A stretch of 44,485 bases of DNA from assembly GCA_947647615.1 (NCBI GenBank), contig CANSKS010000020.1, positions 1 to 44,485 of the forward strand. The letters run 5' to 3'. Source of the DNA: an uncultured Neglectibacter sp. (lineage in GTDB: Bacteria; Bacillota; Clostridia; Oscillospirales; Acutalibacteraceae). The first letter of the stretch is position 1; the number at the start of each line of letters is the position of its first letter. This document shows positions 512-41,700 of the stretch, one piece after another. The position numbers were made by a program, and so were the translations under genes. The notes under the pieces are model-generated. The model had not been told where the DNA came from, made no database searches, and saw nothing but the letters and a program-made list of their open reading frames with translations.

Positions 512-2083
512 TTAAAGATGAGGCCCTCCCGGTTTAACATGGCCGGAATGCTCCTCTTGTATATCAATAATCTTTCCCACCACTCGGGTGTAGTGAGTAA
601 GATTATCCTGGGACCAAAGCCCCCTGGCAATCACCCGGTACCACCGGGGAGACTCCTGGGAGGGAGAGAGCAAGTCCAACTGTACTTCGGGGGAATCTGC
701 TGTAGTTTGATGCAGCGCTTCTATAAGTTTTTGGATATTTGCTTTTCCCAAAAAGGCCTGCTCCTTTTGGTGAGGTTTGGAAATCATCCGCTTCATTCCC
801 AAAACTTGAGAGCCATAATCGGAAAGAATCACCATGTCGGTTTCCACATCATAATCGAAGCGCAACTCTTCCGAATTTGAAGCGAAGAATTGGATTTTTT
901 CCCATTCCTGCTCCATGAGCTGTACGCTGTGCACAGGAGTAGAAATCTCTTGTTCGCGCAGCAGCTCTTCCAAACCACCATGCAGGGGAAGGGCCTCCGG
1001 AGCGGTAGGGTCTTCGTTTACTTGCTGAAGCTCTTGGTACAAGCTATCGGCCACTTCGGAAAGACATTCCAGCAGTAAGGGATGAAACGTGCCGCATTCC
1101 CCATTTGTAATCATTTCAATAGCTTTTTCGTGAGAAAAGGCTTTTTTGTAGCAGCGTTCGCTGGTCAGGGCATCGTAAACGTCGGCCAAAGAAACAATTT
1201 GAGCCGAAATGGGGATTTCTTCTCCCTTTAAACCATCGGGGTACCCTTTTCCATCCCAGCGTTCGTGGTGCCAACGGCAAATTTCATGGGCAGCTTTTAC
1301 CAGAGGCTCCTTCTGGAAGGAGGCAGGCAACGATTCCAGCATGGAGGCACCTACGGCGGAATGGGTTTTCATAATGGCAAATTCCTCTGGGGTAAGCTTG
1401 CCAGGCTTGTTGAGAATCTCTTGTGGAATGGAGATTTTTCCAATATCATGCAGCGCGGCAGCGCTGCTGTAAAGAGAAATATCTGCAGGGCTCAAGGGAT
1501 ACTGGTCTGTTTTTAAGGCCAGGTGGCGACACAGAAATTCGGTGACTGTTTGGATATGAATAACGTGCTGGCCGCTTTCACCATTTCGAAATTCCACAAT
1601 ATGGCTGAGGATTGTGACCATCAGGTTGCTGATCTTTTCCCGTTCGTATACCTGATTAGCCACCATTTGCATTAGCATTTTTTGTTTGCCGTAAAGCATT
1701 AAGGTATTGGTAACTCTTCGCTGGACCATCAGAGCATCGAAAGGCCGCCGAATGTAGTCGGCGACTCCTAACTCATAGGCCCGTTCCATCAAGACAGAAT
1801 CATTTTCTGCCGTAATCATGATGACGGGGATCTGGTGGTTCCAGCCGTGATGATGCATAGCTTCCAATACACCGAAGCCATCCATTTCCGGCATGGTAAT
1901 GTCCAGCAGCAGCAGGTCAATTTCCCCTTCATGTTCCCACAAAGAGGCTACTGCCTCAACACCGTTTACCGCTTCCAGAACGAGGTAATCCTCGCCTAAC
2001 ATATCTTTTAAGATCTCCCGGTTCATTTCTGAATCGTCGGCAATGAGAATTTTCTGCTTAATGGCACTCCTCTTTTCCTTCAT
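512..2083 (-). CDS. Response regulator with HD-GYP domain (probable c-di-GMP phosphodiesterase)
   Basis: This 523-residue cytoplasmic protein has an N-terminal receiver domain (about residues 10-130; acidic pair D16/D17, phospho-acceptor D61 in LLLLDITMPEMDG). A linker helix leads to an HD-GYP domain (about 150-340) with the HD pair at H212/D213 (HDIGK) and an intact GYP at 280-282 (GKGYPDG). HD-GYP enzymes hydrolyse cyclic di-GMP. The C-terminal 120 residues or so (from about 395) look like a PAS-type fold but are divergent, and I cannot name the domain with certainty. The ATG at 2083 is preceded by AAAGGA. A strong promoter lies at 2208-2236, and the Hpt gene follows in the same direction. 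All catalytic motifs appear present. Confidence 0.88.
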   Translation of the reverse strand: MKEKRSAIKQKILIADDSEMNREILKDMLGEDYLVLEAVNGVEAVASLWEHEGEIDLLLLDITMPEMDGFGVLEAMHHHGWNHQIPVIMITAENDSVLMERAYELGVADYIRRPFDALMVQRRVTNTLMLYGKQKMLMQMVANQVYEREKISNLMVTILSHIVEFRNGESGQHVIHIQTVTEFLCRHLALKTDQYPLSPADISLYSSAAALHDIGKISIPQEILNKPGKLTPEEFAIMKTHSAVGASMLESLPASFQKEPLVKAAHEICRWHHERWDGKGYPDGLKGEEIPISAQIVSLADVYDALTSERCYKKAFSHEKAIEMITNGECGTFHPLLLECLSEVADSLYQELQQVNEDPTAPEALPLHGGLEELLREQEISTPVHSVQLMEQEWEKIQFFASNSEELRFDYDVETDMVILSDYGSQVLGMKRMISKPHQKEQAFLGKANIQKLIEALHQTTADSPEVQLDLLSPSQESPRWYRVIARGLWSQDNLTHYTRVVGKIIDIQEEHSGHVKPGGPHL

Positions 2084-2130
2084 AACAGTCAGTCCTTTAC
2101 TCTAAATCTTAAAAGGTGCTTTTCTATCTC

Positions 2131-2186
2131 ACGTTTGAGAAGACAGGTCCCCAGAAATACAAATGGGGAAAAGGGGACGTTTGAGA
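2131..2186 (-). other. Leader of the HD-GYP gene with paired direct repeats
   Basis: In the roughly 115-nt leader between the promoter and the HD-GYP start codon, the 10-mer ACGTTTGAGA (plus-strand sense) occurs at 2131-2140 and again at 2177-2186. Between them GTCCCC (2146-2151) and GGGGAC (2173-2178) form an inverted repeat. It could be a protein-binding site or an RNA hairpin. It does not match the c-di-GMP riboswitch core that I know. Confidence 0.3.
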
Positions 2187-2207
2187 CACACTTGACGATA
2201 CATAAAT

Positions 2208-2236
2208 ATTATAAAGGGAAATACGAAAAGAGGCAA
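2208..2236 (-). promoter_or_regulatory. SigA-type promoter of the HD-GYP/Hpt operon
   Basis: Read on the minus strand, the -35 box is TTGCCT (2231-2236) and the -10 box is a perfect TATAAT (2208-2213), with exactly 17 bp between them. The predicted start near 2200 leaves a leader of about 115 nt. Confidence 0.7.
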
Positions 2237-2392
2237 TAGTTTCTTTTGGCATTTTATTTTTTTTGCATTTTTTAAGGTCGATTTTTCTTATGGTGCTTAT
2301 TTAGCAAAGAAGCTTTCTTAGTAAAATATGGGGTTTGGGTGCAAAGAAAATGCGAAATAATAATTAAAAAGTAATTTTGATTTTTTAAACCT

Positions 2393-2455
2393 CTATGATT
2401 TTTGTTAAAAAACTATGATTTTTATGTTTTTTGGATTTCGAGTTTGTGATAGGAT
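2393..2455 (+). promoter_or_regulatory. Candidate AraC-type operator and promoter of the sugar-transport operon
   Basis: The 11-mer CTATGATTTTT occurs twice (2393-2403 and 2413-2423), spaced 20 bp start to start, about two helical turns. Its downstream copy ends just before the position of a -35 box that is itself poor (TTTTTT at 2427-2432). Then 17 bp later comes an extended -10, TGA-TAGGAT (2447-2455). Direct half-sites abutting a weak -35 are typical of class II activation by AraC-family regulators, and such a regulator is encoded downstream (7153-8649). The surrounding intergenic stretch 2237-2392 is very AT-rich and otherwise shows nothing I recognise. Confidence 0.5.
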
Positions 2456-2518
2456 TTTTTCATACACTAACAGGGGTTAAGTTTCCCTGTTGGGGGAATT
2501 CAAGAAAGGATGAAAAAT

Positions 2519-3898
2519 ATGAAAAACAGAAAGCGCATCGTGCCGGTATTGCTGGTGGTGCTGTTGCTTGCCGGAATACTGGCGGGCTGTGGCGGAGAGA
2601 CAGCGAACAGCTCTCAAAAAGAAAGCAGCACAGCGGCGAAAAGCAGCGGAGAAGAAGGAAGCATTTCTTCAAAGGAAGAAGGTTCTTCTGCGAAGGATAT
2701 CAGTGCTACTGTAGATTTGTGGACCTGGGAGCCTTACGAAAACCAAAAGGCCGTGATTGACGACTTCAACAAGGAGTATCCAAACATTACGTTGGAGTTC
2801 ACCACGGTAAGTTCTGCAGATATGCCTATGAAGCTGCAAACCGCTTTGGCTTCCGATTCCGACATTCCCGATGCCGTATGGTGCGAAATTTCCAACCGTG
2901 GCAAAATGATGGCCCTGGATTGCTGGGAAGATCTTTCCCAAGCGCCCTATAATCTGGACAAAAGCCAAATGTTAGACTACCAGATCCCGCTTTCCGAAAC
3001 TCCCAGCGGTAAGCTGGCGGGCATTGAGGTTTCTACCCCTGTAGCCGGCCTGGCTTATAAGCGGGATTTGGCCAAAGAATATTTGGGAACCGATGACCCC
3101 GAGGAGTTGGCAGAAAAAATTAAAACTTGGGATGACATGCTGAAAATTGGCCAGGAAGTGGTAGAAAAGTCGGGAGGTCAGGTGAAGCTTTTCACTTCCG
3201 CCAACCAGCCTTTTAACATTATCAAGGGCCAGAACCAGGAACCCTACATTATTGGAAACAAATTAAATTTAAAAGCATCCTTAGGTGATGCTTTTGACAC
3301 AGTAATCGCTATGCAGAAGTCCGGAATTGTAGATACCATCGAAAGCGGTACGCCTGCCTTGGATGCGGCTTACGCCGGAAAGAACCATATTTTCTTTGGC
3401 TGTCCCACCTGGGCTCCCACCTGGGAAATCAAGGCCAAAGACCCTGACGGCAGCGGCAACTGGGGATTGATGCTTCCTCCGGGAGGCGGCTATATGAACG
3501 GCGGCACTGTGGTGGCTATTCCTCAAAAAGCAGAAGACAAAGAGGCCTCTTTTGCTTATTTGAATTGGTGCTATTTCACCGTTGAAGGAGCTGTGTCCAA
3601 CAGGGATCATTTGGATTACATGTCTTGCTACAAGCCGGTTTATGAAGACAAAGAATTCTACAGCGTAGAAGATGACTTTTTTGCTGGACAGAACGTTTTA
3701 CAGACTTATGCCCAAGTGATTATCCCTAACACCAAGGTGCCCCGGCAAGTACACCAATACGATATTGAGGTGTCAGATGCTACGAATATTGCTCTAAAGA
3801 CTGTAGGTGACAGCAAAGGCGAGGTCACTACCGACCAACTGCTACAGGATATTACCAAGGAAGTTTTGAACAAGGTTCCCGAGCTGGAAGCGGAATAA
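2519..3898 (+). CDS. Sugar ABC transporter, lipoprotein substrate-binding protein
   Basis: This family 1 extracellular solute-binding protein (459 residues) captures a carbohydrate outside the membrane for the two permeases downstream. The N-terminus is a lipoprotein signal: basic MKNRKR, a hydrophobic stretch and the lipobox ILAGC with the lipid-carrying cysteine at residue 24. A Ser/Glu/Lys-rich flexible linker follows to about residue 62, then the two-lobed binding domain beginning around VDLWTWEPYENQKAV. An in-frame ATG at 2510 overlaps the ribosome-binding site AGAAAGGA (2503-2510), so the second ATG at 2519, eight bases after that site, is the better start. The substrate cannot be read from sequence. 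Confidence 0.9.
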   Translation: MKNRKRIVPVLLVVLLLAGILAGCGGETANSSQKESSTAAKSSGEEGSISSKEEGSSAKDISATVDLWTWEPYENQKAVIDDFNKEYPNITLEFTTVSSADMPMKLQTALASDSDIPDAVWCEISNRGKMMALDCWEDLSQAPYNLDKSQMLDYQIPLSETPSGKLAGIEVSTPVAGLAYKRDLAKEYLGTDDPEELAEKIKTWDDMLKIGQEVVEKSGGQVKLFTSANQPFNIIKGQNQEPYIIGNKLNLKASLGDAFDTVIAMQKSGIVDTIESGTPALDAAYAGKNHIFFGCPTWAPTWEIKAKDPDGSGNWGLMLPPGGGYMNGGTVVAIPQKAEDKEASFAYLNWCYFTVEGAVSNRDHLDYMSCYKPVYEDKEFYSVEDDFFAGQNVLQTYAQVIIPNTKVPRQVHQYDIEVSDATNIALKTVGDSKGEVTTDQLLQDITKEVLNKVPELEAE

Positions 3899-3908
3899 AT
3901 CAGTTGAG

Positions 3909-3942
3909 GGCTGCCGCGTTCGCCGCGGCAGCCTTCTTCCTT
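3909..3942 (+). terminator. Stable intercistronic hairpin after the binding-protein gene
   Basis: A perfect 10-bp GC-rich stem (GGCTGCCGCG at 3909-3918, CGCGGCAGCC at 3924-3933, loop TTCGC) is followed only by a weak T-rich run (TTCTTCCTT). This is probably a partial terminator or 3'-end stabiliser that keeps binding protein in excess over the permeases, a common arrangement in sugar ABC operons. Confidence 0.6.
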
Positions 3943-3985
3943 GCCGAAGCCTCCCTGGGGCGCTAAGAAAGGAAGTTACCATGAC

Positions 3986-4888
3986 ATGAAAAAGAACAGG
4001 CTTGACAAAGCGTACCCTTACCTTTTTATTCTGCCCTTTTTCCTAATTTTCATCGCGTTTAATTTGTTTCCCATCCTCTATTCTTTCGCCATAAGCCTGA
4101 CGAAATGGGATGGAGTAAATCCCAGTGTTTTTGTAGGATTGGAAAATTACATTCGGCTGTTTACCGCCGACCCTCTTTTTTATCAGAGCATTCTCAACAC
4201 AGTGATCCTCATCGCAGTGGCTATTCCTCTTCAGCTTGCTATGGGGCTGTTGATGGCTGTACTTTTAAAAGACTTTTTCTCTAAGTCCCGAGGCTTTTTT
4301 CAATTTGTGAACTACACACCCAATATCACTACCCCGGTAGCGGTTGGCCTGGTGTTTGCCATTTTGTTTGATACCCGCATTGGCACTGTAAACCGGATTT
4401 TAATGGCCCTTGGGATTACAGGGGATTATATCGATTGGCTGGGCCAGCCGGTACCGGCAATGGCGGTGGTAATTTTACTTTTGGTATGGAAATATTTCGG
4501 CTATATTATGGTGATGTTTCTCGCGGGGCTTTCCGGAATTCCCGACGAGCTGTACGAGGCGGCCTCTATCGACGGCGCCGGTTGGTGGAAACGGTTTACC
4601 CACATTACCATACCCATGCTGAAAAACACTTTTGTGTTCCTTGTGACCACCAGCCTTATCAGCGGGCTACAGCTTTTTGCGGAGCCCCAGCTGCTGTTTT
4701 CCCGCGGGGGAGGCGGAGTGGTAGGGGGCCCGGGAAGAAGCTGCCTTACCGTGATATGGCACATGTATGACACCGCGTTTAAGCGGTTCGAGTTCGGCTA
4801 CGGTGCCGCCATTGCCTATGGCCTGTTCCTGATCATTCTGGTGCTTTCTTCCGGCTCCATTAAAAATATTGTGAAGGAAGAAGATTGA
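3986..4888 (+). CDS. Sugar ABC transporter permease, MalF/UgpA type
   Basis: This 300-residue integral membrane protein has six or so hydrophobic segments and the cytoplasmic ATPase-docking loop EAASIDGAGWWKRFTHITIP, the EAA motif of binding-protein-dependent permeases. It pairs with the next gene to form the membrane channel. I chose the ATG at 3986 (AAAGGAAG ten bases upstream). An out-of-frame ATG at 3981 opens a two-codon ORF (Met-Thr-stop) overlapping it, which is probably meaningless. Homology to the family begins at the MKKNRLDKAYPYLF segment, so the open frame further upstream is not needed. Confidence 0.9.
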   Translation: MKKNRLDKAYPYLFILPFFLIFIAFNLFPILYSFAISLTKWDGVNPSVFVGLENYIRLFTADPLFYQSILNTVILIAVAIPLQLAMGLLMAVLLKDFFSKSRGFFQFVNYTPNITTPVAVGLVFAILFDTRIGTVNRILMALGITGDYIDWLGQPVPAMAVVILLLVWKYFGYIMVMFLAGLSGIPDELYEAASIDGAGWWKRFTHITIPMLKNTFVFLVTTSLISGLQLFAEPQLLFSRGGGGVVGGPGRSCLTVIWHMYDTAFKRFEFGYGAAIAYGLFLIILVLSSGSIKNIVKEED

Positions 4889-5712
4889 TGATAAAGCGGT
4901 TTTCCCTTTCAAAAGCTTTGGTGTGGGCCGTTGTAATCTTGATCTCTTTGGTCACACTGTTCCCCTTTTACGTCATGATCATCATGAGCACCTACGTTTC
5001 GGAAGACATTATGGTTTCTTTGCAGCTCTTTCCCGGAAATTATTTGTTGGAAAATTTAAAAACAGTGTTTGCCACAGATTTTCTGCGCTTCTATTGGAAC
5101 AGTACTTATGTGGCTGTAATAGCCACCCTGGGGGGAGTTTTGGTGAGCTCTATGGCAGGCTTTGCTTTTGCAAAGTACCGTTTTAAGGGCAGAAAAGTTT
5201 TGTTCGGGATCGTACTGGCCACTTTGATGATCCCTTCCCAGTTGGGACTGGTAGGCCTCGTGATGCAGCTGAAAGGCATGAAGCTGATGAACACCCATTT
5301 CGCGCTTATCGTGCCGCCTATGGCCAATGCCTTTTACGTATTCTGGATGACGCAGTACATGAAAGGCTCGGTTCCCACCGAGATATTGGAAAGCGCCAGA
5401 ATAGATGGCTGCAACGATTTCCGCGCTTTTTTCCGAATTGTGTTTCCCATTATCCGTCCGGCCACGATCACGGTATTTTTACTTTCGTTTTTAGGCTCTT
5501 GGAACAACTATCTTACTCCCTTGGTAGTGCTCAATAAGGAAAAGCTTTATACTATCCCTATGGCTATCACGTTATTCAGCACTACCTACCGCAACGATTA
5601 TGCGGCCAGTATTCTGGCCCTTACCTTAGCTACCTTGCCTATTATCGTCATTTTTGCCTTTGGCTCTAAATATCTTATTCAAGGCATGGTGGCGGGAAGC
5701 GTAAAGGGATGA
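4888..5712 (+). CDS. Sugar ABC transporter permease, MalG/UgpE type
   Basis: This is the second, 274-residue membrane subunit of the importer. It has about six transmembrane segments and the EAA loop ESARIDGCNDFRAFFRIVFP. Its ATG overlaps the stop of the first permease by one base (TGATG), with AAGGAAG upstream, so the two are translationally coupled. No ATP-binding subunit is encoded in the operon. In Firmicutes such CUT1-type importers commonly share one ATPase (MsmK/MsmX type) encoded elsewhere, which I assume here. Confidence 0.9.
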   Translation: MIKRFSLSKALVWAVVILISLVTLFPFYVMIIMSTYVSEDIMVSLQLFPGNYLLENLKTVFATDFLRFYWNSTYVAVIATLGGVLVSSMAGFAFAKYRFKGRKVLFGIVLATLMIPSQLGLVGLVMQLKGMKLMNTHFALIVPPMANAFYVFWMTQYMKGSVPTEILESARIDGCNDFRAFFRIVFPIIRPATITVFLLSFLGSWNNYLTPLVVLNKEKLYTIPMAITLFSTTYRNDYAASILALTLATLPIIVIFAFGSKYLIQGMVAGSVKG

Positions 5713-5801
5713 TGTGGAGAAAATAAAAAATTATAGAAAGGAAAGCCTAGTCGGCAAGACCAGAATCACAGGTTTTGTAGTATAGGGTGATGGTGATTTT
5801 G

Positions 5802-7013
5802 ATGGATCACGACCGCGAAATTTTACGGAGACTGGCCCATGAAGTGGCGGAGATCGCAGCTTCCGACCGCATGCAGAAGCTGAAGGAGGAGTGGCGGCAG
5901 CACAATGCCCTTAAAAGCCGCCGCCCCATGATTTGTGTTTCCCCGGAGGGAAGCTGGGTGGAGATTCTTACCGAGCAAGACCTTCAATGCGAAGACTCGC
6001 TGCTGCGCTCTTTTGAATATAAGCTCCGGCAGAAAATTTACTGGGCCAAAGAAATTGGGGATGACACCCCTGTTTCTGAATTTTTTAATGTGCCATATGT
6101 GACCAGTCGGTCTTTTTACTTAGAAGGAGCCGGCAGCAACGAGGTGCGGGTGGAAGAAAGAGGCAGCTTCCATTATCAGCGTCTAATCACAGACCTGGAT
6201 GAGGGCATGAAAAAGCTGAAGTTCCGAAAGGTGACCTTTCATAAAGAGGAGAGTTTCCGACAGCTAGAGGCCGCAGAGGAGGCGTTTGGCGACCTGCTGA
6301 AGGTGCGCCATCGCGGAGTTTTTTGGTGGACGCTCGGTATTACGGCCGAGGTGATCAAACTGATTGGCTTGGAAGAAATGATGCTCTTCATGTTGGATGA
6401 TCCGGAGGGAATGCACCGTCTAATGGGATGGTTCCGGGACGAACACAAAAACCTGATGGATCAATATGAGAAGCTGGGAATCCTTACCCTGAATAATGAG
6501 GATGATTTGGTGGCTTCCGGCGGCATTGGTTATACCGATGAGCTTTCCCAAAAAGGCAAGGAGATTTCTTATGAAGACCTTTGGGGGTTTGCGGAAAGCC
6601 AGGAAACGGTAGGAATCTCCCCGCAGATGTTTGGCGAGTTCGTATTCCCCTATCAGCTTCCCCTGCTGGAACGGTTTGGCCTGAATTGTTATGGATGCTG
6701 CGAGCCGGTGGAAGCCCGATGGGAGTGGATCAAAACAATTCCCCGTCTGCGGCGCCTCTCTGTTTCTCCATGGAGCGACCAGCGCGTCATGAAAGAGATT
6801 TTGGGGAAGAATTATATTTTCAGCCGGAAGCCAAATCCCGCCTATGTATGTGGCGGTTTTATAGAAGAGGAAATTCGGAAGGATTTAAAAGAGACCCTTT
6901 CTATGGCGGCAGATCTCCAGTTGGAGATTATTCTCAAAGACACTCATACAGTAGAAGGGCATCCTGAGCGTTTCCGAAAGTGGGTGGAGATCGCCAGGAG
7001 CCTTGCAGAATGA
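5802..7013 (+). CDS. Uroporphyrinogen-decarboxylase-like (URO-D superfamily) protein, function unknown
   Basis: This 403-residue cytoplasmic protein resembles the URO-D/corrinoid methyltransferase superfamily in its later part (TIM-barrel-like spacing, C-terminal half with CYGCCEPVEARWEW at 296-309 and KDTHTVEGHPERF near the end). Cys296/299/300 and the late histidines could bind zinc as in MtaA/MtbA-type methyltransferases, but I cannot align the full metal site, so the activity is unassigned. It is not a housekeeping HemE: the sequence is longer and divergent, and it sits in a sugar-transport operon 89 bp after the second permease. GTG (5787) and ATG (5790) are alternative starts. ATG 5802 was chosen because a GGTGA Shine-Dalgarno match lies just upstream. 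A terminator follows at 7021. Confidence 0.6.
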   Translation: MDHDREILRRLAHEVAEIAASDRMQKLKEEWRQHNALKSRRPMICVSPEGSWVEILTEQDLQCEDSLLRSFEYKLRQKIYWAKEIGDDTPVSEFFNVPYVTSRSFYLEGAGSNEVRVEERGSFHYQRLITDLDEGMKKLKFRKVTFHKEESFRQLEAAEEAFGDLLKVRHRGVFWWTLGITAEVIKLIGLEEMMLFMLDDPEGMHRLMGWFRDEHKNLMDQYEKLGILTLNNEDDLVASGGIGYTDELSQKGKEISYEDLWGFAESQETVGISPQMFGEFVFPYQLPLLERFGLNCYGCCEPVEARWEWIKTIPRLRRLSVSPWSDQRVMKEILGKNYIFSRKPNPAYVCGGFIEEEIRKDLKETLSMAADLQLEIILKDTHTVEGHPERFRKWVEIARSLAE

Positions 7014-7020
7014 ATTTGCA

Positions 7021-7068
7021 CTGCCGTTTCTTAATTCCGGTTTCAGGAAGCGGCAGCCTTTCTTTGTC
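7021..7068 (+). terminator. Intrinsic terminator after the URO-D-like gene
   Basis: A 12-bp stem with two G-U pairs (7021-7032 with 7045-7056) is followed by the T-rich run CCTTTCTTTGTCTT. It separates the transport operon from the two-component genes. Confidence 0.55.
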
Positions 7069-7152
7069 TTCAAAAAAGATGCGGAACTGCTTTTCACAGC
7101 ATCCCACATCCGGACCGGCCACTATTTCAGTTTTTGAAAAGGGGAGGGTTTT

Positions 7153-8649
7153 ATGGGAGATCAGATCGGTGTCATGATCGTAGATGATGAATATATTGTG
7201 CGGGAAGATATGAGGGCTATTGTCGATTGGGAAAAGCTGGGGTTTCGCATCCTGTGCGAGGCCACCAACGGGAGGCAGGGGTTAGAGCTTTTTCTTTCCT
7301 GCCGGCCAAAGCTTGTAATCACAGATATCAAAATGCCTGTGATGGATGGGCTGGAGATGGCAGAAGCCATTTTAAAAACCGCTCCGGAAACGAAATTCAT
7401 CCTGCTTACCGCTTATGATGAATTCGACTTTGCCAGGGCAGCCATGCGGCTTGGCATTACGCAATACCTGCTAAAACACGAAATAGATTCCGAAACTATG
7501 GAAGAGCTTCTGAAAAAGATTTCGGACCAAAGCAGCGAAGAAGACCAGACCAGTTGGGAAGGAGCCGCCCTTTGCGCGCGGGATTTGATCTTGGGAGCTG
7601 TTCCCCAGGAAAACGGGAGAAAAGCATTGGAGAAAATGGTAAAAGAGGGATTTCTATCTCTGGTACTTTTTCAAGGAGGTAAACGACTTTCTCAGCAGGA
7701 ACGCAGAGAACTGATGACGCGAAAAGAAGAGCGAATGAAAGCGGTTCCTATTATGGCGGACCAGGAAATATATACCGTGCTTTTTGCTTTTCAAACTCCC
7801 AGTGAGTTGGCATACTATCACAGCATTTCCCAATACATCAGCCAGGTAATGGCCGGTTTGGGAGGGCAAGGCGCCCAAGCCGATGTGGCAGTTAGCGAAA
7901 GATGGAAAGACCTGCAGTCTGTCAAAAGCGGGTACCGGCGAACTCTGGCTTCGTTGGAAACGGCAGTATTTCAGAAGGAACACGGCAGAATTATCCGGGG
8001 CGAGATAACCCTTTGCAGGGAAATCGACTATGTAGGCCTTTATGAATTTATTATGCTGATGAAAACCTGCCTGGCTAACAGATCCTATGACAGAGTTTAC
8101 CAGGAATGTAGGGAATATGTATTGCAGGAGTGCCTGCCGGAAAAGAAAGTGGATCAGTTCCGAATATGGCGTACTTTTTTGATCGGCATGCTGGAAGAGC
8201 ACAACAGCGCGCTACAGTATGTAGAACCCTTTCAACTGGTTCATGTCAAATGTGAAAGCGATACGGTTTTCGATTTTTTAGAAAAGCTCCAGGAACTGCT
8301 AAAGCTTTTTGCTGCGGCGAGCGGGAAAGATTTCAGCAAAAACATCCGACGGGCGGTGGCCTATATCAACGAGCATTATACGGAAAACATCACCCTGGAA
8401 GAAGTGGCGGATGTGCTGGGCATGAACGCCATGTATACCGGCCAGATTTTTAAAAAGGAGATGGGGATCTCCTTTAAGCAGTATTTGGCCGAGCTTCGGG
8501 TGGAAAAGGCAAAAGGGCTGTTGCGTTCCGGAAATTACAAGATTTATCAGGTAGGAGAAATGGTAGGATACCAGAGCACCCAATATTTTTGCAGCGTCTT
8601 CAAAAAGCTCACCGGAGTCAGCCCGGCGGAATATGAAAAGCAGGCTTAA
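7153..8649 (+). CDS. YesN-type response regulator with AraC DNA-binding domain
   Basis: This 498-residue regulator has an N-terminal receiver domain with acidic residues near the start (VDDE) and the phospho-acceptor D58 in ITDIKMPVMDG. A middle region of about 260 residues lacks clear motifs. The C-terminal AraC/XylS domain (about 395-498) has two helix-turn-helix units, including ITLEEVADVLGMNAMYTGQI and the family signature VGYQSTQYFCSVFKKLTGVSP. It is partnered with the kinase gene starting two bases after its stop. The likely target is the transport operon upstream, where paired 11-mers precede the promoter. The start ATG has a good GGGAGG site. Confidence 0.9.
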   Translation: MGDQIGVMIVDDEYIVREDMRAIVDWEKLGFRILCEATNGRQGLELFLSCRPKLVITDIKMPVMDGLEMAEAILKTAPETKFILLTAYDEFDFARAAMRLGITQYLLKHEIDSETMEELLKKISDQSSEEDQTSWEGAALCARDLILGAVPQENGRKALEKMVKEGFLSLVLFQGGKRLSQQERRELMTRKEERMKAVPIMADQEIYTVLFAFQTPSELAYYHSISQYISQVMAGLGGQGAQADVAVSERWKDLQSVKSGYRRTLASLETAVFQKEHGRIIRGEITLCREIDYVGLYEFIMLMKTCLANRSYDRVYQECREYVLQECLPEKKVDQFRIWRTFLIGMLEEHNSALQYVEPFQLVHVKCESDTVFDFLEKLQELLKLFAAASGKDFSKNIRRAVAYINEHYTENITLEEVADVLGMNAMYTGQIFKKEMGISFKQYLAELRVEKAKGLLRSGNYKIYQVGEMVGYQSTQYFCSVFKKLTGVSPAEYEKQA

Positions 8650-8651
8650 TT

Positions 8652-40393: not shown

Positions 40394-40422
40394 TTGACAA
40401 AAGCCCTGTTACACGTTAAAAT
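40394..40422 (+). promoter_or_regulatory. Promoter of the aroF-tyrA-aroB-aroA operon
   Basis: Perfect TTGACA (40394-40399), 17 bp, TAAAAT (40417-40422). Transcription should begin near 40429, giving a leader of roughly 260 nt before aroF that contains a leader peptide and a terminator. Confidence 0.85.
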
Positions 40423-40452
40423 AAAGAAAATCGAAGAAAGGATGCGGCAAGA

Positions 40453-40563
40453 ATGAACGTTTTGCCCGCTATGCTCACAACGCGATTTAACAGCTGCTTT
40501 AGCGCACGATTTTTTTCGTGTGCTTATTTCGCGTGGGAAAATAGTGGGTGCCGCGTTTTTTAA
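40453..40563 (+). CDS. Aromatic-rich leader peptide (attenuation of aroF operon)
   Basis: A 36-codon ORF too short for standard gene calling begins with ATG at 40453, ten bases after AAAGGA, and ends with TAA at 40561-40563. Eight of its residues are aromatic: F12, F16, F20-F21, Y25-F26, W28 and F36, in the segments RFNSCFSARFF and CAYFAWENSG. The FF codons sit in the loop of a 9-bp hairpin (40501-40509 with 40516-40524). Position between a strong promoter and an intrinsic terminator in front of DAHP synthase fits a ribosome-mediated attenuator sensing Phe/Tyr. That the ORF is translated is inference. Confidence 0.7.
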   Translation: MNVLPAMLTTRFNSCFSARFFSCAYFAWENSGCRVF

Positions 40564-40572
40564 AAGGTTTAT

Positions 40573-40653
40573 CTTTTGGTATTGGGCTTCGCACGAGCCT
40601 GAGCCAAAAGGAAAAAAGCTTTATGGAACGGGGCCTCCGGGCTCCGTTTTTTT
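40573..40653 (+). terminator. Attenuator: alternative hairpins and intrinsic terminator before aroF
   Basis: The terminator stem is AACGGGGCC (from 40627) with GGCTCCGTT (to 40648), one G-U pair, followed by seven T residues (40647-40653). It is only 34 bp before the aroF start, so it must be conditional. Upstream, CTTTTGG (40573-40579) pairs with CCAAAAG (40604-40610), enclosing GGCT/AGCC. Two copies of GAGCC (40595-40599 and 40601-40605) could instead pair with GGCTC (40640-40644) of the terminator's 3' arm and prevent termination. Confidence 0.8.
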
Positions 40654-40686
40654 GTGCGAAAAAATTGCGGAAAGGCTGGAAGAAAA

Positions 40687-41700
40687 ATGATTATTGTACT
40701 GAAACCGAACCAAAAACAAGAGACAATAAAGGAATTTATTCAAAGGCTAACTTCCCAGTATGAGGTGCAGGTCAATACCTGGGTGGGAACTCACAGCACA
40801 GTGCTTGGGCTTATTGGGGATACCACGGGGATCGACAGCGAATATGTGGCTGCCCAGGATTTCGTGGAAAGCGTAAAACGGGTACAAGAGCCCTATAAAA
40901 AGGCCAACCGGAAATTTCATCCCGACGATACGGTCATAACGCTGCCAGGCGGTCAAACTATAGGTGGGAGTTCTCTGGCTTTGATCGCCGGTCCCTGCTC
41001 TGTGGAAAGCGAGGAGCAGATCTGCCAAGTGGCCCAGCGGGTAAAGGCTTCGGGAGCGACATTTCTCAGAGGCGGCGCTTTCAAGCCCAGAACCTCTCCC
41101 TATGCCTTTCAGGGCATGAAGGCAGAGGGGCTGGAGCTGCTTCGAGAGGCAAAGAAGCTCACTGGGCTGCCCATTGTCACCGAGATTATGAGCATGGAGC
41201 ATATTGGGCTCTTCGAGGATGTGGATATTATCCAGGTAGGCGCAAGAAATATGCAGAATTTTGAGCTGTTAAAGCAGTTGGGCAAGCTTCGCCGCCCCAT
41301 TCTGTTGAAGCGTGGTCTGGCAAATACCATAGAAGAACTTTTGATGAGCGCGGAATACATTATGGCAGAGGGAAACGAGCAGGTAATTCTCTGTGAACGA
41401 GGCATCCGTACCTATGAGACGATGACCCGCAACACCTTGGATATCTCTGCGGTGCCTGTCATCAAGCGGCTTTCCCACCTTCCTGTGGTAGTGGATCCAA
41501 GCCATGCCTCCGGCGTCAACTGGCTCATTGAGCCTCTGGCCGTGGCTGCGGCGGCTGTAGGGGCGGATGGCTTGATCATCGAAGTACACAACGACCCCAG
41601 CCATGCCCTTTGTGATGGAGCTCAGTCCATTACGCCGGACCAGTTCGACAGTTTGGCAAAAAAGGTCCGGAAGGTTTCTCAAACGGTGTGTGAGCTATGA
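40687..41700 (+). CDS. aroF: 3-deoxy-D-arabino-heptulosonate 7-phosphate (DAHP) synthase, type I-beta
   Basis: This 337-residue enzyme condenses phosphoenolpyruvate with erythrose 4-phosphate, the first step of aromatic biosynthesis. An N-terminal ferredoxin-like regulatory domain (about 1-70: MIIVLKPNQKQETIKEFIQR) precedes the KDO8P-type barrel with LIAGPCSVESEEQ, FLRGGAFKPRTSPYAFQG, QVGARNMQNFELLKQ, LLKRGLANTIEE and VVDPSHASG. In Thermotoga-like enzymes that N-terminal domain mediates tyrosine/phenylalanine feedback. The ATG at 40687 follows GGAAG; the upstream ATG at 40654 lies right at the terminator. Transcription is probably controlled by the attenuator in front. tyrA overlaps its stop. 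Confidence 0.95.
   Translation: MIIVLKPNQKQETIKEFIQRLTSQYEVQVNTWVGTHSTVLGLIGDTTGIDSEYVAAQDFVESVKRVQEPYKKANRKFHPDDTVITLPGGQTIGGSSLALIAGPCSVESEEQICQVAQRVKASGATFLRGGAFKPRTSPYAFQGMKAEGLELLREAKKLTGLPIVTEIMSMEHIGLFEDVDIIQVGARNMQNFELLKQLGKLRRPILLKRGLANTIEELLMSAEYIMAEGNEQVILCERGIRTYETMTRNTLDISAVPVIKRLSHLPVVVDPSHASGVNWLIEPLAVAAAAVGADGLIIEVHNDPSHALCDGAQSITPDQFDSLAKKVRKVSQTVCEL

Follow-up and report, generated by a model that had tools for sequence, protein, structure and literature searches.

What controls the genes for aromatic amino acid synthesis in Neglectibacter, in a phylum where T-box RNAs are considered the norm? The window, which is the whole 44,485-nt stretch of DNA analysed here (contig CANSKS010000020.1 of an uncultured Neglectibacter sp.), carries genes for DAHP synthase (aroF), prephenate dehydrogenase (tyrA), dehydroquinate synthase (aroB) and EPSP synthase (aroA), in that order, and the contig stops within the last of these. 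Upstream lie the shikimate dehydrogenase gene and then the shikimate kinase gene, aroK. A first-pass annotation of this DNA had described a consensus promoter, an aromatic-rich 36-codon ORF and a terminator with seven Ts close to the DAHP synthase gene, and we located all of these between aroK and aroF (Table 1), with 33 nt separating the end of the T7 run from the aroF start at 40687. The leader ORF encodes the peptide MNVLPAMLTTRFNSCFSARFFSCAYFAWENSGCRVF. A U-rich stretch directly follows the hairpin that lies inside the ORF, and the 5' arm of the terminator doubles as the 3' strand of the proposed antiterminator. A strict terminator scan made no call at the window's terminator, perhaps because the first Ts were counted in the stem. 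The leader RNA (40430-40660) is predicted to fold at -94.6 kcal/mol, compared to -68.2 kcal/mol in shuffled sequences (z = -5.7), and none of 200 shuffles equalled it.

Table 1. Features of the aroF leader region, in window coordinates.
Feature	Position	Strand	Remarks
Sigma-70-type promoter, TTGACA-17-TAAAAT	40394..40422	+	-35 TTGACA 40394-40399, 17-nt spacer, TAAAAT 40417-40422
Shine-Dalgarno-like AAAGGA of the leader ORF	40437..40442	+	10 nt 5' of the ATG
Leader ORF, 36 codons (6 Phe, 1 Tyr, 1 Trp)	40453..40563	+	homologous leader in 27 of 29 genus genomes
CGA-UUU (Arg-Phe) codon pair no. 1	40483..40488	+	CGA enrichment before Phe
CGA-UUU codon pair no. 2	40507..40512	+	overlaps 5' arm and loop of internal hairpin
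Internal hairpin inside the ORF, AGCGCACG with CGUGUGCU	40501..40524	+	covariation on 27 leaders
Alternative hairpin, sharing the 3' arm of the internal one	40513..40541	+	predicted folding
Proposed antiterminator 5' strand, GGGUGCCGCGUUU	40546..40558	+	counterpart of GGCUGCG in relatives; folding, complementarity
Intrinsic terminator	40627..40653	+	hairpin 40627-40648, T7 at 40647-40653; -14.4 kcal/mol by direct folding
aroF, DAHP synthase, first gene of aroF-tyrA-aroB-aroA	40687..41700	+	PF00793, PF18152

The first-pass annotation had staked its proposal on conservation of the ORF and its aromatic codons in close relatives. DAHP synthase was detected in all 29 genus genomes searched, the window's own genome counted, and 27 of these have a homologous leader upstream of aroF in which the terminator and the aromatic codons are kept along with the ORF; KRFSYYFSLSLRFTAQAFCAW (L008) is a representative peptide. 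The exceptions are L013, where the contig begins 43 nt upstream of aroF, and L014 (genome G009), where no leader ORF of this kind was present in the 420 nt upstream of aroF and a search of the genome with the leader model was also negative. All 28 leaders examined (the 27 plus L031) have a looser form of the promoter pattern 59-86 nt upstream of the ATG, compared to 4 of 878 control windows inside aroF. L031 comes from another genus of the family and has a diverged hairpin; it was excluded from the genus covariation and spacing counts. In the 27 genus leaders, the two CGATTT sites are spaced by 24, 27 or 30 nt, in every case a multiple of three (L022 and L029 have a single CGATTT, and their first site, which reads CCGTTT or CAATTT, was placed from the second). 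Aromatic residues make up 73 of the 124 residues between the sites vs. 42 of 397 in the ORF tail. Judged by this comparison, the leader ORF is not a chance reading frame, and the region upstream of aroF appears to hold a real, conserved regulatory element.

ORF length varies among the genus leaders, and the ORF sometimes runs on. In L028 (genome G018), one extra base after the Trp codon, relative to L026, shifts the frame through either a sequencing error or a real change, and the ORF reads through the terminator and stops 5 nt before aroF.

Within the genus, then, the promoter, an aromatic-rich ORF that looks translated, the hairpin inside the ORF and the terminator are kept together, and three parts of a leader-peptide attenuator were found: a start codon with a Shine-Dalgarno sequence and an enriched ORF, a hairpin overlapping that ORF, and a terminator (four of the genus terminators were placed by hand). 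We consider it probable, at roughly 85%, that the element controls the aroF-tyrA-aroB-aroA operon by ribosome-mediated transcription attenuation.

To follow the leader beyond the genus, we applied a fixed rule that called for a Shine-Dalgarno-like sequence and an ORF of 12-65 codons with at least five aromatics in 12 codons. This rule replaced an earlier aromatic-density score that had put 13 of 28 genus loci (leaderless L014 included) under its threshold; it fails on two genus members, L064 and L065, and therefore undercounts. The far set comprised 95 of 100 loci, L064 and L065 having been moved out as part of the genus set and L075, L124 and L128 for having less than 300 nt of upstream sequence; 20 of 21 distant matches that lacked a locus were retrieved. 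An aromatic-rich ORF was present upstream of aroF at 74 of the 95 distant loci, compared to 26 of 1154 control windows from the same loci and 65 of 950 shuffles, in a set drawn mostly from the best 80 of 594 matches to the window's enzyme and thus biased toward near relatives. Terminator-like hairpins followed 66 of the 74 distant leaders vs. 56 of 222 shuffles. The carriers include Clostridium tyrobutyricum, C. magnum, C. chromiireducens, Marasmitruncus massiliensis and Lachnospiraceae MAGs.

In a class-wide draw, 105 of 148 genomes had a DAHP synthase match at E 1e-60. We took 60 of these 105, one match each, picked by hand from the ranked list and mostly from its upper part, and found an aromatic-rich leader in 38 of the 60 compared to 31 of 600 shuffles; none was present at the eight least similar of the 60 (≤54% identity). 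Aromatic richness is common to the distant peptides, and little else is shared apart from subgroups. A model of the genus leaders had no match at E 0.01 in 169 genomes outside the genus, in a search whose filters lose weak matches; its 27 genus matches are its own training sequences. In the window's own genome, the model scored well only at aroF, the three other matches having E values of 1.0-4.4. Both the conservation in the genus and the wide occurrence of aromatic-rich leaders in Clostridia bear out the first-pass assignment to the attenuator type exemplified by enterobacterial pheA.

A different account would have the ORF encode a short protein with a function of its own, followed by an unregulated terminator. 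The variable length of the ORF, which at times runs on, would suit such a protein, but its C-terminal part is not always in frame, and the class-wide association with aroF and with aromatic codons likewise argues against this account, to which we give almost no weight.

Several distant loci had features of their own. Six Clostridium leaders (L098, L111, L125, L127, L134 and L139) and one from the class-wide set (L219) share a stretch near FYFSAGYLFCKK after the first aromatic run. L105, L118 and L122 have very short ORFs whose Tyr/Phe codons, by eye, seemingly pair just past the stop codon, as in the classic 1:2 hairpin. At L204 (genome G023, 533-8650), the leader is followed by ORFs of 337, 281 and 354 aa; the first was identified by search as aroF, and the three agree in order and size with aroF, tyrA and aroB. 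Beyond them lie genes for a response regulator, an ABC transporter and a histidine kinase, and aroA is not directly next.

The best reading of the aromatic codons is that the leader senses mainly Phe, together with Tyr. The first-pass annotation had envisaged one element responding to several aromatic amino acids; we retain Phe with Tyr and have set Trp sensing aside, since 9 of the 27 genus leaders have no Trp codon, its place being taken by Cys or Tyr codons or lost to a frame change. The residues that flank the aromatics (K, R, S, L, R and A) are also conserved in the genus, as might be expected if the nascent chain itself (for example, KRF..YYFSLRFTARAF) stalled the ribosome on free Phe, Tyr or another ligand in the manner of TnaC, with or without transcription control. 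However, much of this residue conservation falls where the internal hairpin needs particular nucleotides, F and Y interchange, the spacing may be 24, 27 or 30 nt, and distant peptides share little beyond their aromatics, subgroups aside. We regard a peptide sensor of this kind as unlikely.

The internal hairpin pairs AGCCUGCG with CGCGGGCU in most genus leaders. Across the 27 leaders, 94.9% of its cells are paired (205 of 216, compared to 199.5 in shuffles) and its covariation is 0.231 vs. 0.170 in shuffles, and none of 500 shuffles was as high in covariation and cells paired. The two measures least sensitive to kinship were weaker, being matched by 35 and 37 of 500 shuffles. The first-pass annotation had posited mutually exclusive hairpins and had named an alignment of related aroF leaders as the check: the hairpins hold up as predicted foldings and the aligned aromatic codons are conserved, but of the two stems tested, the internal one covaries and the alternative one does not. 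Since its covariation is no higher than that of shuffles, we dropped the alternative hairpin as an independently selected part.

The second half of the leader behaves differently from the first. The exact motif GGCUGCG is present in 15 of the 27 genus leaders. With its counterparts counted, 21 leaders have it in frame 0, four in frame 2 and two in frame 1; in L003 it sits 3' of the stop codon. Because some leaders lose the reading frame 3' of the internal hairpin, the comparison indicates that GGCUGCG is conserved at the level of RNA. The first part of the leader, where spacing and aromatic codons keep the frame, thus behaves as a set of sensor codons, and the second part, where the frame is loose, behaves as RNA. 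Conservation of the hairpin and of GGCUGCG as RNA, and a fold 5.7 standard deviations more stable than shuffles, might also be expected of a riboswitch, a T-box-like RNA or a protein-binding leader that senses without being translated and contains the ORF only incidentally. Such an RNA would not account for the spacing by whole triplets as far as the hairpin or for the aromatic enrichment, and a search with Rfam 15 found no family in the leader at gathering score, the window yielding two tRNAs only. Below the cut-off, the leader had two weak matches, to sRNA families with E values of 0.14 and 6.1, and no T-box is present. We think this explanation very unlikely.

When the ribosome was placed over the 5' arm of the internal hairpin and the RNA was folded as it would be before the 3' arm of the terminator is made, at least six pairs between the motif and the terminator 5' arm were predicted in 23 of the 27 genus leaders. 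Pairing was weak in L024 (four pairs) and in L017, L018 and L030 (0-1), and L016 and L021 pair in a shifted register. The arm paired by the proposed antiterminator strand lies about 60-170 nt downstream. Pairing of each leader with its own terminator arm was stronger than with arms exchanged between leaders (-14.65 vs. -13.97 kcal/mol), and 85 of 5000 permutations were as good. In the window, a U-A pair of the putative antiterminator has become C-G, although an A-U pair of the terminator thereby becomes G-U. Nine of the 27 terminators retain the A of GGAGCC despite its facing a C there, where it is unable to pair inside the terminator. Leader by leader, complementarity was slightly better than in shuffles (mean z of -0.95, below -2 in 4 of 27); for complementarity to the terminator arm, the mean z was likewise small, at -0.74 among 66 far leaders, -0.55 among 37 from the class and -0.41 among those of the genus.

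Equilibrium folding past a stalled ribosome, with the whole terminator present, gave a clear switch at the sensor codons in about 8 of the 25 leaders with a usable terminator (L004, L005, L008, L010, L022, L026, L028 and L030). In most other leaders, the window included, the terminator remains favoured, so the antiterminator would have to win kinetically there; in L006 the terminator is never favoured. The stop codon lies 12-21 nt 3' of the motif in 15 of the 27 leaders and 33-48 nt 3' of it in 10, and in the latter a terminating ribosome could not reach to cover the motif. Support for the predicted antiterminator, in which GGCUGCG pairs with the terminator 5' arm, is modest and weaker than that for the internal hairpin.

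Attenuation would then proceed as follows. The ribosome would trail RNA polymerase into the leader, and the hairpin in the ORF, acting as a pause hairpin, would keep the two in step. With ample Phe-tRNA and Tyr-tRNA, the ribosome would move on to the stop codon, where in many species it would cover GGCUGCG, so that the terminator would form and transcription would end. If Phe-tRNA (or Tyr-tRNA) were scarce, the ribosome would stall in the RF..YYF..RF stretch, leaving GGCUGCG free to pair with GGAGCC in the 5' arm of the terminator, and the polymerase would continue into aroF.

The codons preceding Phe have a strong bias. Among Arg codons directly 5' of Phe, CGA accounts for 53 of 58 in the 27 genus leaders and L031 together and for 16 of 22 in the distant leaders (p = 1.4e-8 for the latter), compared to 1 of 36 when 34 long ORFs of the window are counted. 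Genus aroF genes use CGA for 1.9% of their Arg codons. Of 54 CGATTT occurrences inside genus ORFs, 53 are in frame, as are all 16 inside distant ORFs, with five more outside the distant ORFs, but this is not independent evidence, since UUU is already in frame in a Phe-rich ORF. The pair belongs mostly to nearer families, occurring in 16 of 74 distant leaders and 2 of 38 class-wide leaders. The tRNA-Arg genes of the genome have the anticodons ACG, CCG, UCU and CCU, and no UCG was present among the 20 of 30 tRNA loci examined (the rest overlap them or the window), in a survey that left 2 of 32 matches unresolved and an assembly that is about 95% complete.

We tentatively raise the idea, which we hold to be rather doubtful, that CGA-UUU is a built-in sensitiser, its codon-pair context serving as a gain control of the attenuator. 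CGA would be decoded by the inosine-containing tRNA-Arg whose gene has the anticodon ACG, and with I-A wobble, a purine-purine pair, in the P site, decoding of the next UUU would be slower, so that a slight drop in Phe-tRNA charging would be enough to stall the ribosome. The pairs could also reflect a plain RNA motif, shared descent or, at the second site, overlap with the hairpin. In B. subtilis, according to one paper (PMC10454642), four consecutive CGA codons did not lower wild-type lacZ activity, which counts against slow decoding of CGA. If the pattern has the proposed meaning, a codon-pair role in attenuation becomes directly testable.

T-boxes are present in the same genome, at other genes. 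A search for T-box RF00230 found none on the contig or before aroF, in agreement with the first-pass annotation, and 12 matches elsewhere in the genome, four of them over the family cut-off. The first long ORFs after these T-boxes include valS, ileS, tyrS, pheS, the genes for threonyl- and histidyl-tRNA synthetase, a TrpB-like enzyme and cysE. Of these, the T-boxes of tyrS and valS exceed the cut-off, and that of pheS is slightly below (91.8 vs. 93 bits). At three loci of this genome (L052, L057 and L059), the T-box matches stand before an aminotransferase-like gene, an M42 peptidase-like gene and the TrpB-like enzyme. If our reading is correct, one cell splits the sensing of Phe and Tyr, with T-boxes at tRNA synthetase genes and a ribosome-read leader at the entry to the aromatic pathway. 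Leader-peptide attenuation would also extend to a large group within the phylum, and such short ORFs before aroF could be annotated in many Clostridia genomes.

The enterobacterial pheA and trp leaders consist of an ORF that is rich in cognate codons and contains a hairpin, followed by a terminator ahead of the first gene, with alternative pairing. The layout is the same here, with a cognate-rich ORF, a hairpin in the ORF, a terminator and a putative alternative pairing. In contrast, the host here belongs to Clostridia, the regulated gene is aroF, Phe and Tyr codons occur together, and CGA precedes Phe codons; the putative antiterminator strand is situated 3' of the internal hairpin, with its partner arm about 60-170 nt further on, and no Rfam model matches above its cut-off.

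The closest published case that we found is uORFC-13-1, a Phe-codon uORF with a terminator directly before aroF that was proposed to be an attenuator (Brewer et al. 2021, PMC8632094); the likeness is one of description and not of compared sequences. As given there, uORFC-13-1 is known from Acholeplasma and environmental sequences only, with 24 representatives (PMC8632094). In bacilli, Naville and Gautheret (2010, PMC2965389) described leader peptides for histidine upstream of hisZ and hisS*. Apart from the ermC leader, these authors stated, they knew of leader-peptide systems demonstrated in Proteobacteria and Actinobacteria only. The histidine leaders are likewise leader-peptide attenuators of Firmicutes in a role often filled by T-boxes, and they differ in the amino acid, the genes and the class of Firmicutes. 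In C. phytofermentans, trp is under T-box control, and 'aro' does not occur in the text consulted of the paper reporting this (PMC5171806). We found no report of an aroF leader peptide for Clostridia in open-licence papers, a body of work outside which the older attenuation literature largely lies. The T-box (RF00230) is a common sensor of tRNA charging in these bacteria and stands here before tyrS and pheS rather than aroF, where the reader would be the ribosome rather than the tRNA. The kind of mechanism that we propose is already known; what is new lies in the group of bacteria that hosts it, in the division of sensing with T-boxes and in the CGA-UUU pairs.
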